Shown piece after piece: positions 3,174 through 10,224 of a DNA stretch of 34,239 bases. Location: IMG/VR virus record IMGVR_UViG_3300006752_000103, positions 1 to 34,239 of that record; one strand, given 5' to 3'. Below the pieces are notes generated by a model. The model was not told the origin of the DNA. It worked only from the letters and a program-made list of their open reading frames with translations, and made no database searches. A program made the translations under genes and the position numbers. The stretch's first letter is position 1, and each line of letters opens with the position of its first letter. The DNA comes from a virus.

Positions 3174-4066
3174 CAGTCTAGTTCCCGCTTCACAAGCTTT
3201 GTGTACCAGACGTGAGGCTTGAACCGTGCCTTAGATGTTATCTTCGGGGCTAGTTCTGCGTTCTTCCAGCACTTTGTTTTGAAGGAACAGAAGGTACAGG
3301 TCTTGGGCATCAAGCGATTCCCTGTCTCTGTTTTCTGTCTGTCGATGGTGACTGTCTCAGGAACAGACTGGAATGGTACCTTGAACGGTGCATCATTGAC
3401 GATTGCTTCTACCCGCTTGTTCGCATCCTCAAGATATGCCTTGCGGTCTTCAGACTGTTCGCGGGGTGCCTCTACGAAATCCCACTCACCTGTTGACTTA
3501 TTGATTACAATCCAACCACCAAAGCGTTTACCTTCTGATTCACCATACAAGTGTCCCTGCATGACGTACCCAAAGGGGTCATCATCTTTGATAACATCGT
3601 AACCACCGCGTCCAGAAAACTTGTTGTCGAACGACCATGGACTTGCTGTCTTGATATCCCAGACTTCTTCTTCGCCATCAATGTTCAAGATGACATCTAG
3701 GGTTCCGTTGACGGTCTGTCCACCCAGTTCGAGGGAACACTTCTTCTGTTCCGCAACCACGTCTAATCCTGCAGCCCGCATCACAAGAATTGCAAAGGCT
3801 TCTAACAGGTCACCAGTTGCGAACCGCACGATATCATTGTAGGCAACATCTTGTTTGTTGCCCTGCTTCTCAAGTTGCTGTTGACACAAGGGGCGACCGA
3901 CACCGGACATACGAACCCGGTAGTCTCCCCTACTAGAGAACTGCTTTCGCATTGCTGCTTTGCAATCCTCGCCAAACTGTTCTATCAGATGTTCGAGGCG
4001 AGAGGAGTCAATCTCCCCCCGCCCCGCTTTCTGTAGGAAGTCTTGGACTTCTACGAGTTGTAACAT
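3173..4066 (-). CDS. PD-(D/E)XK nuclease of RecB/Cas4 type with four-cysteine cluster
   Basis: A probable exonuclease acting on DNA ends. The PD-(D/E)XK core is visible: Glu89 in G-D-L-L-E-A-F, Asp124 in G-T-L-D-V, Asp137-Ile-Lys139 in V-W-D-I-K-T, and Q-G-H-L-Y near 170. Cys61 in the N-terminal third pairs at a distance with Cys257, Cys260 and Cys266 (C-T-F-C-S-F-K-T-K-C), the spacing used for a 4Fe-4S cluster in Cas4, AddB and related nucleases. At 297 residues it is Cas4-like in layout, but no CRISPR array or cas genes are present. Its neighbours are endonuclease I (after a hypothetical gene) and the candidate ssDNA-binding protein, suggesting a recombination or replication-repair role. 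Confidence 0.85.
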   Translation of the reverse strand: MLQLVEVQDFLQKAGRGEIDSSRLEHLIEQFGEDCKAAMRKQFSSRGDYRVRMSGVGRPLCQQQLEKQGNKQDVAYNDIVRFATGDLLEAFAILVMRAAGLDVVAEQKKCSLELGGQTVNGTLDVILNIDGEEEVWDIKTASPWSFDNKFSGRGGYDVIKDDDPFGYVMQGHLYGESEGKRFGGWIVINKSTGEWDFVEAPREQSEDRKAYLEDANKRVEAIVNDAPFKVPFQSVPETVTIDRQKTETGNRLMPKTCTFCSFKTKCWKNAELAPKITSKARFKPHVWYTKLVKRELD

Positions 4067-4068
4067 GA

Positions 4069-4923
4069 TTAGCCAGCCAAACGCTCTGACAAATCAATGT
4101 CGTCTGACGATGCTGAAGCTTTTGTTGCTGACTTGTACTCTGCGAACACAGTCTCGTTGTGAGCCATCACAGTATCCGCAAAGTCTTTCATCAAGGCTTT
4201 GTCGCTATCCGAACCTGAAACCTCTTTCACCAAGGAAAGTTTCGGTGTCCAGTAGATTACGCCGCCATTCTTCTGCTTCTCTGTCGTGAACTCAATCAAC
4301 GCCTTGTGCATCAGAATCTTACGGTCTGTAAGCTGCTTCTGAATGAAGTCGTTAACCGGACGGTAGCCTGACCGCTTGAAGTACGCCATGAACGGCATCT
4401 GCTCAACAGGTGCAGAAGTACCATCTGCATATGCTGCTTCGGGTGCATCTATAAGGCCATAGATTACCTGATTACAGCTAACCGAACGGCTCAACAGAAC
4501 ACGAGGGTCATCTTGACCTAGTGCCTCTTCTTCTTGACGAGATAGCCGACCGCACTTGTTGCCGCCCAAAGTGTCAGGAAATTCACCGGCTAGTTTGCGC
4601 TTCTGTACAGACTTACAAGAGAACTTGCCTTCTTCTTGGTCCCATACAGACCACTCAAAGGTTCGCAGCAAGGGACGGATTTGTACCTTGTCTGCATACA
4701 CAGGGGCTGAACCGTTCCAGATACGCCACGAACCACGCCGCAGCAATGTACCATCATCAGTCTCTGTGTCATAATTAATATTTAGTCTAGGCAAACCAAT
4801 CTTGGGCTTGTTGTTCGGGTCTGCCTGTCCACTCATTTCCATGAGGGCTTCGTCGTTATCTGACTCGAATGCAGTCAGGAAGGTATTCATTTCATCATTC
4901 AACATTTGTAGTTCATTGCTCAT
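4069..4923 (-). CDS. Candidate single-stranded DNA-binding protein
   Basis: A 284-residue protein that I cannot assign firmly. A beta-rich central part (R-R-G-S-W-R-I-W-N, K-V-Q-I-R-P-L-L-R-T-F-E-W-S-V-W) could form an OB-like fold. The C-terminus is Ala/Ser-rich and acidic (S-S-D-D-I-D-L), the kind of tail SSB proteins use to touch polymerase and helicase. Cysteines occur in F-S-C-K and N-K-C-G-R-L but do not form a clear zinc motif. It starts after AAGGAG and has its own promoter in the end of the polymerase gene, so it may be made in higher amounts, as expected for an SSB. Existence is sure; function is inference. Confidence 0.7.
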   Translation of the reverse strand: MSNELQMLNDEMNTFLTAFESDNDEALMEMSGQADPNNKPKIGLPRLNINYDTETDDGTLLRRGSWRIWNGSAPVYADKVQIRPLLRTFEWSVWDQEEGKFSCKSVQKRKLAGEFPDTLGGNKCGRLSRQEEEALGQDDPRVLLSRSVSCNQVIYGLIDAPEAAYADGTSAPVEQMPFMAYFKRSGYRPVNDFIQKQLTDRKILMHKALIEFTTEKQKNGGVIYWTPKLSLVKEVSGSDSDKALMKDFADTVMAHNETVFAEYKSATKASASSDDIDLSERLAG

Positions 4924-4988: not shown

Positions 4989-6507
4989 GCCAGTTTTTAC
5001 CCATTTTTAACTCGATACCGACTGGCATGTCATAGGTAATCCCATACCTATTCTTTGATTCCAACGGGATAGCTAGCATACATTCAGCCATCACGTCAAT
5101 ACATTTTTTTTCTTCACTGGGGTATACATCCATGACGATGGAATCGTGAACCGTGTTGCAGATAACCGAACGCAAGTTCAGTTCGCGAACTCGTTTGTCT
5201 AACATAATCAAGGACATAGGCAGTAGGTCAGCAGTTGCGAACCCTTGAACAGGGTAGTTGCATATGGCGGTACGGTCTGTTGCCGCACCCCAATCAGTCC
5301 ACCTTGCGTGAGGGAAAGCGTATTGTCTACCTGAAGGAAGCTGAATGTATTTCTTTGTTACCGCGTGTTTCTGCAGGAACTCATGCCACTTGGTAACATT
5401 GTTATACTTTTCCTTAAACGCATTGTAATATCGTTTCTGGTCATCCGTACCCGACACACCGCCATACAATGGCTTGAAAGTGTGAGCCTTAGCATCTTGC
5501 CGCGAACATCCTATAACACTGGCAGTGTAGCTATGCACATCTGTACCGGCATCCACATCAGTCTTGATGCCCTCATCATCTGCAAGGAATCCGGCTACCC
5601 TAAACTCTAGCTGGGCATAATCACCCTCTAGGATTGACCCACCCTCGAACCGGCTTTCAACAGCCCGCCTGATGATAAAGGTAGTACCTCGTGGCATGTT
5701 CTGGAAGTTCGGGTTGCGGGATGACAGACGACCAGTAGCCGTGACACACTGCATGAACTCAGTATGGATAAACCCCTGCCCATCCATGTTGTTCTCCATG
5801 CCCTCAACAAAAGAACGCAGATAGGTTCGAACTGCACTGTACCGAATGTAAGCTTCTGCAAACTCACGGGCTTCACCCCGCAGGGATGTGAACATGCTTT
5901 CCAAGGTTTCTTTATCTGTCTTGAATCCTGCGGCAGCCACATCATAAGGGTCACGAGGGACCAACTTGAACCCCGCAACCTGACCTGTCGATGTATAGCG
6001 CACACCAGCCCCCTGACAGGGCTTACAGATGCGAATAGCCTTTCCTAGCGTTCCGTCCTTCTTGCGGGCTGTATAACGCCCCACGCCCCCGCAATCGGTA
6101 CACTGACTGCCACGTGTCTTGAACAGCACATCAGTCTCGTTTACAACGTTGCGTTTGAAGTCGGCACGGCTCATGCGGGTACGACGTTTTGGTTTGCGAC
6201 CAGCCCCGCGAATCTCGTGACCCAAGTTGAACACACCAGCCCAGCGGGACTTGTCCTTTACCTTACAAGAATAGAACAGCTTGGAACGGTCATCAGGGCT
6301 GTCTAGATTGATGGGCGTGTCCCCCATAGCTTCCGCAGCCAGTTCCTGTAGCCGCCGTTCGAGGGTAAACAGTTCATCTTCATACTCGCGGCGAATGTCC
6401 GCAAGTGTTTGTCTGTTAATCTTGATGCCGTTCCGTTCGATGCGAGACAGCACATCTGTCATCTCAAGCGACAGACGCAAAGTGGGCAAGAGTGTCTGGT
6501 TGTTCAT
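4960..6507 (-). CDS. polA: Family A DNA polymerase (polymerase domain) with DnaJ-type zinc insertion
   Basis: Replicative DNA polymerase of the phage, 515 residues from 6507. Two CxxCxGxG motifs (Cys136/Cys139 and Cys161/Cys164) form a DnaJ-like zinc module in the region before the thumb and palm. Motif A is L-E-G-D-Y-A-Q-L-E (Asp296). The O-helix has Arg336, Lys340, Phe344 and Tyr348, matching E. coli Arg754, Lys758, Phe762 and Tyr766. Motif C is V-H-D-S (His454, Asp455). The 3'-5' exonuclease domain is missing here and is encoded by the separate upstream gene. A longer frame opens at 6552, but ATG 6507 has GAGGAA seven bases ahead and is preferred, leaving a 44-base overlap with the exonuclease gene. 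The zinc module is, from memory, characteristic of HMO-2011-type phages. Confidence 0.95.
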   Translation of the reverse strand: MNNQTLLPTLRLSLEMTDVLSRIERNGIKINRQTLADIRREYEDELFTLERRLQELAAEAMGDTPINLDSPDDRSKLFYSCKVKDKSRWAGVFNLGHEIRGAGRKPKRRTRMSRADFKRNVVNETDVLFKTRGSQCTDCGGVGRYTARKKDGTLGKAIRICKPCQGAGVRYTSTGQVAGFKLVPRDPYDVAAAGFKTDKETLESMFTSLRGEAREFAEAYIRYSAVRTYLRSFVEGMENNMDGQGFIHTEFMQCVTATGRLSSRNPNFQNMPRGTTFIIRRAVESRFEGGSILEGDYAQLEFRVAGFLADDEGIKTDVDAGTDVHSYTASVIGCSRQDAKAHTFKPLYGGVSGTDDQKRYYNAFKEKYNNVTKWHEFLQKHAVTKKYIQLPSGRQYAFPHARWTDWGAATDRTAICNYPVQGFATADLLPMSLIMLDKRVRELNLRSVICNTVHDSIVMDVYPSEEKKCIDVMAECMLAIPLESKNRYGITYDMPVGIELKMGKNWLDLEEVLTV

Positions 6508-9171: not shown

Positions 9172-9321
9172 ATGTCTTTTACTATTAAAATAAACCCTAT
9201 AGCTAAACTATTAAGGGATAAAAAATACAAACATAAAACTGTTCCAGATAAAAAGAAATCTAAATTAAACAAACTTGCAAAGAAGGAAATGGATGATGGG
9301 AAGACCAGCAAAGATACCTGA
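9172..9321 (+). CDS. Small lysine-rich hypothetical protein
   Basis: A 49-residue, strongly basic protein (about one third Lys/Arg), with no recognisable family. The same frame opens farther upstream at 9142 and 9001, but the latter would run antisense through the primase gene, so an inner start is more likely. The ribosome binding site is weak (AGGT nine bases upstream). It is the first possible gene of the rightward early run and overlaps the next gene by 26 bases. It may be an early nucleic-acid-binding peptide; this is a guess from charge only. Confidence 0.4.
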   Translation: MSFTIKINPIAKLLRDKKYKHKTVPDKKKSKLNKLAKKEMDDGKTSKDT

Positions 9322-9505
9322 CCCAACAAAGACGTATAATCTGCTAATGTCTGTTGAACAATACGACAGCCTAGCAGGACACGCTGCACGATTGCAAAAG
9401 AAAAGCTTGGAGCAAGTTAGTGTAGGTGATTTAATGCGTGACGCGATTGAACTTTACATTGAAGCATTGGATGAAGATAATGACGCAAGCATCTCTACAA
9501 ACTAA
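9296..9505 (+). CDS. Small ribbon-helix-helix-like protein
   Basis: A 69-residue protein starting M-G-R-P-A-K-I-P. A strand-like piece (T-Y-N-L-L-M-S-V) is followed by two predicted helices (E-Q-Y-D-S-L-A-G-H-A-A-R-L and S-V-G-D-L-M-R-D-A-I-E-L-Y), which is the layout of ribbon-helix-helix regulators of the CopG/Arc kind. An early phage repressor or host-gene regulator is possible. ATG 9296 is chosen because AAGGAA lies seven bases ahead; upstream starts would extend into the lysine-rich gene. It overlaps the next gene by 26 bases. Confidence 0.7.
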   Translation: MGRPAKIPDPTKTYNLLMSVEQYDSLAGHAARLQKKSLEQVSVGDLMRDAIELYIEALDEDNDASISTN

Positions 9506-9746
9506 GAAACCTGCCATTGAAGTATGGAAACGCAAGGACGGTTCGTGGATTGTCAACGCACCTATCTCATCTGTTCGAATCGGTGAGACTGACCGCGAAC
9601 AGGTTAAGAAAAAGAATTGTGTTGATTATCTACTGGACATTTCCGTGTTCGTGGGAAAAAGTGAAAATGATTGCAGAAAGTGGCTTGACAGGAACCGTCA
9701 AGGCTTGGTAAAACTGGGGACACCTTACGAGGTGGCACAGTCCTGA
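9480..9746 (+). CDS. Hypothetical early protein
   Basis: An 88-residue protein without a recognised family. It begins M-T-Q-A-S and contains a beta-like stretch (E-V-W-K-R-K-D-G-S-W-I-V) and a basic segment near a single cysteine (K-K-K-N-C-V-D). The start at 9480 overlaps the end of the ribbon-helix-helix-like gene; a longer frame from 9438 is possible. The last 26 bases also form the first hairpin of the structured RNA described at 9721, so the coding 3' end and an RNA element appear to share sequence. Confidence 0.6.
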   Translation: MTQASLQTKKPAIEVWKRKDGSWIVNAPISSVRIGETDREQVKKKNCVDYLLDISVFVGKSENDCRKWLDRNRQGLVKLGTPYEVAQS

Positions 9747-9942
9747 AGTGGAGAATGTCGCTGAAAAGCGACCGAAACAGCAGGATTTTGAGTGTGGTAA
9801 CACACTGCATAAAAAGAGTTAGAACAGATTGCTTCATGGCGATTACTCTGGACTCTTAATAAAAGCAGGGGGAGTGGTTACCCTTTGTTTCCTTGGTTGG
9901 TTGGGAAGCGAGGTCAGATTTATTTCTGGCCTCGTTTTTTTT
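9721..9942 (+). ncRNA. Candidate structured RNA with tetraloop hairpins
   Basis: Five stems can be drawn by eye. A CACCT/AGGTG stem with TACG loop lies at 9721-9734. A stem of GTCGCT/AGCGAC with GAAA loop lies at 9757-9772. An AGTGTG/CACACT stem with GTAA loop lies at 9791-9806. An AAGAGTT/GACTCTT stem joins 9814-9820 to 9851-9857. The terminator hairpin closes the region at 9909-9942. TCCTG (9741-9745) can also pair with CAGGA (9781-9785) around the GAAA hairpin, and GGTAAC (9796-9801) could pair with GTTACC (9877-9882) as an alternative or pseudoknot. UNCG and GNRA loops are typical of selected RNA structure. No known RNA family was recognised. From 9747 on there is no convincing gene until 10003. 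Confidence 0.55.
9909..9942 (+). terminator. Rho-independent terminator
   Basis: A nine-pair stem (CGAGGTCAG with CTGGCCTCG, one G-T wobble) and an eight-base loop is followed directly by eight T. It ends transcripts from the first early genes and the structured RNA. A new promoter begins two bases after it. Confidence 0.88.
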
Positions 9943-9943
9943 G

Positions 9944-9972
9944 TTGACACCCCTTTTTGTTTCCGATATTGG
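9944..9972 (+). promoter_or_regulatory. Early rightward promoter
   Basis: TTGACA is followed after 17 bases by TATTGG. It lies immediately after the terminator and about 30 bases ahead of the next gene, so it restarts transcription for the block of small early genes. Confidence 0.55.
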
Positions 9973-10002
9973 TTATGTATCAACAGCCGATGGAGAAGTG
10001 AA

Positions 10003-10224
10003 ATGGCTAAGAATCAAAAGACTGAATGGGACATACTTAACGATAATCGTATCAATGTTTGGAAGACACTTTCCCTCGAACAGAAAAAAGCACTACACGG
10101 TTTGCAAACTGCATGGGAAGAATTGCAAGGTAGCTACAGAGAACTGTGCCATCCCACCTTTGATGACATCATAAAGATGGATGACGCTTATTATAGATTA
10201 CGCCGCGTATTGATTGAAGAGTAG
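10003..10224 (+). CDS. Hypothetical early protein
   Basis: A 73-residue, mostly helical protein (M-A-K-N-Q-K-T-E-W-D onward) with a Trp/Leu-rich first half and an acidic C-terminal end. No family recognised. GGAG lies seven bases before the start, and the gene follows directly on the promoter at 9944, making it the first gene of this early transcript. A much longer upstream frame from 9829 exists but would run through the terminator and is rejected. Confidence 0.75.
   Translation: MAKNQKTEWDILNDNRINVWKTLSLEQKKALHGLQTAWEELQGSYRELCHPTFDDIIKMDDAYYRLRRVLIEE

Follow-up and report, generated by a model that had tools for sequence, protein, structure and literature searches.

Bacterial small RNAs derived from 3' untranslated regions (UTRs) consist of an mRNA 3' end with an intrinsic terminator and with sequence that can base-pair to a ribosome-binding site, and the put antiterminator RNAs of phage HK022 promote the read-through of terminators in cis. 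The phage RNA element analysed in this work appears to resemble the first class, both in the presence of a terminator and in the complementarity to a ribosome-binding site, but here the target that we propose is the gene next downstream, and the hairpin straddles the stop codon. Like put, the hairpin insert described below is composed of several hairpins and lies ahead of a terminator within an early operon; in contrast to put, it is lineage-specific and is not conserved together with the terminator.

The DNA analysed is a 34,239-base virus record (IMG/VR IMGVR_UViG_3300006752_000103, positions 1 to 34,239), the whole of which we call the window. Its terminase and primase are closest to those of the HMO-2011-type marine phages (Roseobacter phages CRP-2, CRP-9 and CRP-13, Pelagibacter phage HTVC033P and HMO-2011 itself), a group reported to be dominant and widespread in the ocean (PMC9038755). 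That genome paper mentions RNA for tRNA detection only, and a full-text search of the open literature returned no paper linking HMO-2011-type phages with noncoding RNA. In the window, the primase, helicase and polymerase A genes run leftward from 9046, and a rightward early unit begins at ~9.1-9.3 kb with a small gene (weakly ribbon-helix-helix-like), followed by an 88-residue gene, p88. The RNA region is the 3' end of this unit and ends in its terminator (Table 1), which agrees with the location given in an earlier annotation made from the letters alone (the sequence-only reading).

The isolates HMO-2011, Roseobacter phage CRP-212 and Pelagibacter phage HTVC033P have the primase-helicase-polymerase A block and the terminase in common with the window, but their gene layout upstream of the primase is unlike the window's. 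In the examined stretches of these three genomes the RNA covariance model described below found no match, and a DNA similarity search of the region against annotated phages, both near and distant, gave nothing meaningful. The comparison set is formed by ~100 uncultivated HMO-2011-type phage loci, the related contigs having been obtained from IMG/VR via the primase; for p88, 189 homologous sequences were fetched (same-contig repeats counted). The window p88 protein has no Pfam or PHROG match, and AlphaFold2, applied to a 42-row homologue alignment, confidently predicts a beta-beta-beta-alpha arrangement (pLDDT 86.9) with weak structural resemblances of the AP2/integrase-arm type (Z about 3.5 or less).

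Table 1. Features at the 3' end of the early unit and around it (window coordinates)
Feature	Positions	Strand	Remarks
Small gene, first of the early unit	9293..9505	+	ORF; weak ribbon-helix-helix (CopG-type), Pfam RHH_1 E 0.018, below cut-off
p88, 88-aa gene	9480..9746	+	ORF; 3' end codes ..PYEV; stop TGA 9744-9746
Stem A 5' arm ACACCTTACGA	9720..9730	+	Supplied by the p88 3' end
Hairpin 1, CACCT-TACG-AGGTG	9721..9734	+	Five-pair, U-A closed; lineage-specific local fold of the p88 3' end
Structured insert, ~130 nt, hairpins 2-4	9738..9867	+	Boundaries uncertain by a few bases
Hairpin 2	9739..9787	+	Outer stem AGTCCTG/CAGGATT, internal loop, inner GTCGCT-GAAA-AGCGAC
Hairpin 3, GTGTG-GTAA-CACAC	9788..9809	+	z -2.6
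Hairpin 4	9814..9857	+	Long stem AAGAGTTAGA..GATTGCT-TCAT-GGCGATT..CTCTT; z -3.7
Hairpin module CAGGGGGAGTGGTTACCCTTTG	9866..9887	+	Also in some relatives, both carriers and non-carriers of the insert
Linker TTTCCTTGGTTGGTTGGGA	9888..9906	+	Complementarity with the next gene's Shine-Dalgarno region
Intrinsic terminator	9907..9942	+	Long GC-rich hairpin and T run; covaries in relatives
Promoter TTGACA-N17-TATTGG of the next transcription unit	9944..9972	+	From sequence
Shine-Dalgarno and start codon of the next gene (10003-10224)	9992..10005	+	Proposed linker pairing target

The sequence-only reading had proposed, for this place, a new structured RNA built from consecutive UNCG and GNRA tetraloop hairpins. 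Every stem that it listed is present, and the region 9700-9945 has a folding energy of -92.8 kcal/mol, compared with -66.1 +/- 4.4 in 200 dinucleotide shuffles (z -6.06, with 0/200 shuffles as good); the insert alone (9738-9865) gives z -5.43, also with 0/200 shuffles as good. The GNRA loops do sit on stable stems (GAAA at 9763-9766 and GTAA in hairpin 3), and the outer TCCTG/CAGGA stem around the GAAA hairpin is real (z -4.1). Hairpin 1 lies, as it had been described, inside the 3' end of a gene, where it is a local fold of p88 and unremarkable against shuffles (z -1.5). The UNCG label has to be dropped: since the closing pair of CACCU-UACG-AGGUG is U-A instead of C-G, this is not the classical ultra-stable cUNCGg loop. 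The pseudoknot or switch suggested for GGTAAC/GTTACC amounts to a single six-base complementarity without comparative support, which is explained by the hairpin module at 9866-9887, because the 3' half of the match (GGTTACC) is conserved in insert-free relatives. Rfam release 15 has nothing above the gathering score in the window, in L008 or in three carriers of the 88-nt domain described below (L036, L044 and L073); the best sub-threshold match in the window, to L20_leader (25.7 bits vs 58.7), extends over both the hairpin module and the terminator.

Covariation and position show that the 3' end of the early unit is a conserved structured RNA, formed by a hairpin at the stop codon (stem A), a linker and an intrinsic terminator, after which a new promoter follows. 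Nearly all relatives, L008 among them, have the p88 3' end ACCTTACGA (coding for PYE) paired with a downstream arm of the TCGTAAGGT type, around the stop codon. An automatic test found a strong stem in 43 of the 46 cluster representatives, a few of these calls (the window included) being longer-range pairings other than stem A; the stop codon is located in the loop in 28 cases and in the 3' arm in 14, and the loops measure mostly 3 to 90 nt. The two arms vary together (examples are CCGTACGAGG/CCTCGTACGG, ACACTGTAC/GTACGGTGT and CACTCTACG/CGTAGAGTG), and in L241, where the protein end has changed (PYKPRN), a stem-A-like hairpin of new sequence is still there. In a MAFFT alignment of 21 compact members, not fitted to any structure model, 97.2% of the cells are paired and 13 of 19 pairs show changes in both partners, with a covariation score of 0.607 (vs 0.256 when shuffled and 0.10-0.14 for slid structures). 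With 63 distinct rows, in an alignment fitted to the covariance model, 16 of 19 pairs are changed on both sides (162 double-changed cells) and the score is 0.548, against 0.229 when shuffled. Both helices, stem A and the terminator, covary strongly among the relatives, and the covariance model (R1) matches each phage once, invariably at this place; in the window the match covers 9871-9942 only, with 42.5 bits. A duplex test of stem A (combined p 2e-13), now superseded by the covariation counts, is weak for the short members, as in these the 3' arm and the stop codon overlap.

The window itself lacks stem A. Its 3' arm (TCGTAGGGT / TCGTAAGGT), which is present in L007-L009 and in nearly all relatives, is deleted, presumably through the insertion described below or through a later deletion, and hairpin 1 is the local fold left once this arm was lost. 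The linker, the terminator and the promoter at the end of p88 are all found in the window. Of the 46 representatives, 44 have a TTGA[CT] box after the T run, and 40 have a -10 box starting with TA 16-18 nt after the -35 box. In almost all relatives the promoter-like sequence comes immediately after the terminator, and the -10 boxes are unusual yet conserved (TATTGG or TATGGG, ~17 nt after TTGACA). The structure of the element is well supported; its function we infer.

The linkers between stem A and the terminator are pyrimidine/GU-rich, many of them with CCUUUC or GUUGGUUG, and they often mirror the ribosome-binding site of the gene that opens the next unit, ~70 nt past the terminator, as can be seen for UUUCCUUUCCUCCUAA with GGGGAAAGGAG in L050, GUUGUUUCCUUUC with GAAAGGAGAACAAC in L059 and CCUUUCGUA with UACGAAAGG in L147. 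The phages' own linker-target pairs reach a mean of -17.2 kcal/mol, against -15.4 +/- 0.45 for permuted pairs (0/5000 permutations). The Fisher combined p against shuffled linkers is 1e-10 for 43 representatives (12 of them individually with p<0.05), within single phages the next unit's first gene comes out above later ones with p 0.003, and an independent subset of 12 mutually dissimilar cases gives p 0.006 for linker and target, the linker p values being optimistic because the phages are related. In the window, the pairing amounts to -18.3 vs -12.7 for shuffled linkers (p 0.04); the complementarity is imperfect in the window's clade, and in the window one later gene scores better than the first and another about equal. 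Part of the linker signal is generic anti-Shine-Dalgarno complementarity. Read from sequence comparison, the linker-target complementarity is the best functional lead that we have, a lead and not a demonstration, and it hints at the masking of a ribosome-binding site, rather than a riboswitch, as the role of the element.

The explanation that we prefer, and to which we give about an even chance as a whole, is that in the p88 phages the linker masks the ribosome-binding site of the next gene, the insert being a separate module. In transcripts that read through the terminator, the linker would keep the first gene of the next unit untranslated or, alternatively, it could act in trans as a 3'-UTR-derived small RNA; free translation would then be obtained only from the transcripts of the internal promoter. 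The ribosome finishing p88 would melt stem A, and we propose that the element would therefore be coupled to p88 translation.

A simpler possibility, which we consider tenable but on the improbable side, is that stem A, the linker and the terminator act as an insulator that ends the early transcript and protects its 3' end, with the pyrimidine-rich sequence giving the complementarity as a by-product. Nearly all members of the group have the terminator-promoter arrangement, many linkers are generic anti-Shine-Dalgarno strings, and the linker accessibility is modest (the linker is predicted to be often partly paired, with a median motif unpaired probability of 0.44, about equal to that of the upstream coding sequence), all of which would suit an insulator. 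A by-product is more difficult to reconcile with linkers that fit their own downstream gene better than the genes of other phages, and that, within the same phage, fit the first gene better than the others.

Concerning the insert, its carriers are the window, L003/L094 (100% identical) and L007/L008/L009 (95%, coming from three other data sets) only, and they hold two sequence variants of it. It is absent from L002, whose primase is 99% identical to the window's, as well as from L004-L006 and L039; in close relatives, the sequence corresponding to 9700-9737 is followed by a short variable stretch and then by 9866 onward, with the intervening 130 nt missing. In the window, the insert contributes the p88 stop codon. 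Judged by these comparisons, hairpins 2-4 are a lineage-specific insert, a separate folded module between stem A and the terminator, and the tetraloops of the window hairpins are not conserved features. The proposal of a new structured RNA thus stands in that the place is folded and conserved with covariation, but the run of UNCG and GNRA hairpins is not the conserved part: hairpins 2-4 are absent in most close relatives, and the tetraloop hairpins are a local insert within a larger conserved element. In the related phages, for which a covariance search had been suggested as a check, stem A and the terminator covary; the insert hairpins are limited to the two variants.

These variants differ at eight positions, three of them unpaired. 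The paired changes include one G-C to G-U, one U-G to C-G and a compensatory pair in hairpin 3 (9793/9804, U-A in the window and C-G in L008), and the change at 9851 may cost a pair or shift it. Since the substitutions keep pairs, with at most one exception, selection on the insert structure is mildly favoured; because only two variants are known, no conserved riboswitch core is definable. Pattern scans yielded no further copies of the insert, either in viral contigs (three patterns) or in genome contigs (one pattern), the other matches being attributed to chance (several are evidently inside coding sequence). Hairpin 3 and its 3' flank (window 9797-9813) are complementary, in 15 of 17 positions, to the phage's own polymerase A mRNA (minus strand, within 5707-5796), and L008 8290-8306 has the same complementarity over 17 nt with one wobble; the chance expectation of such a match is not negligible.

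The insert probably shapes or stabilises the 3' UTR. It could instead be a passenger, that is, a mobile or recombination-derived fragment (possibly a former ribozyme or other folded RNA) that now has no role, as its sporadic distribution, the lack of another copy in the scans of viral and genome contigs and the lack of an Rfam match would suggest. We find this rather doubtful, given that the paired-site substitutions between the variants keep pairs (one by compensation, with at most one exception) and that the fold is far beyond chance.

Other lineages (L195, L073/L176, L036/L118, L044/L107 and L260) hold a different domain, of ~88 nt, in the loop of stem A (upstream of the primase, minus strand). 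The site therefore gains structured add-ons, and the window insert is one of several folded additions to this 3' UTR. The 88-nt domain is homologous among its carriers (GTGTCC..AAGTTRCGTTGATTCYGG..CCRGAARCAC), is predicted to form a three-way junction in 3 of the 4 members folded, and displays pair-preserving changes (from CCGG/CCGG to CTGG/CCAG and from CGTAAC/GTTACG to CGTGAC/GTTGCG). A hammerhead-like reading of this domain (GTGTC..TTGATT..GAAACAC), with a similar junction order, was rejected by eye, because the positions of the core G8/A9 hold other bases, which would form Watson-Crick pairs. Behind the 88-nt domain, L036 (~4117-4213) and L073 (~3924-4023) contain, on the minus strand, what appears to be a second, older copy of the PYE-coding hairpin, as if a gene end together with the 88-nt domain had been swapped in by recombination beside the old gene end. 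A further insert, of ~50 nt (AAATTATGGAGCGTGACAGTAATGTCTGTACTTTAAATTTAAG), is found nearly identical in the stem-A loop of L002, L006, L008 and L203; it is common to phages of two different subclades.

The insert, or the 88-nt domain elsewhere, might act on RNA polymerase in a put-like manner, so that it passes the terminator ~40 nt downstream. The position just ahead of a terminator in an early operon, the very stable multi-hairpin RNA and the acquisition, by different lineages, of distinct folded domains at this site are consistent with such antitermination, but we regard it as unlikely, as most relatives with the same terminator and promoter lack the insert, and read-through is unnecessary given the promoter that follows. 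Even though the p88 model is vaguely similar to AP2/integrase arm-binding domains and its neighbour is weakly ribbon-helix-helix-like, it is very improbable that the stem A inverted repeat is a DNA operator for the small DNA-binding proteins of the unit, an RNA hairpin being favoured because the spacer between the arms varies from 3 to 90 nt and G-U pairs are tolerated (they are common when the transcribed strand is read), and the repeat is always at the stop codon.

Returning to the masking of the next ribosome-binding site by the linker, this preferred reading can be extended, tentatively and with less than an even chance of being right, to a phage RNA family not described before. In such a family, the hairpin at the stop codon and the anti-Shine-Dalgarno linker would pair with the first gene of the next operon, control it and co-evolve with the gene at that position, the hairpin region being also a landing site for exchangeable folded domains. 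A covarying RNA across ~100 sequences, with targets that apparently co-vary, would make post-transcriptional control in HMO-2011-type phages testable, and a site at which different folded domains have been gained repeatedly provides a means of seeing how phage RNAs acquire modules.
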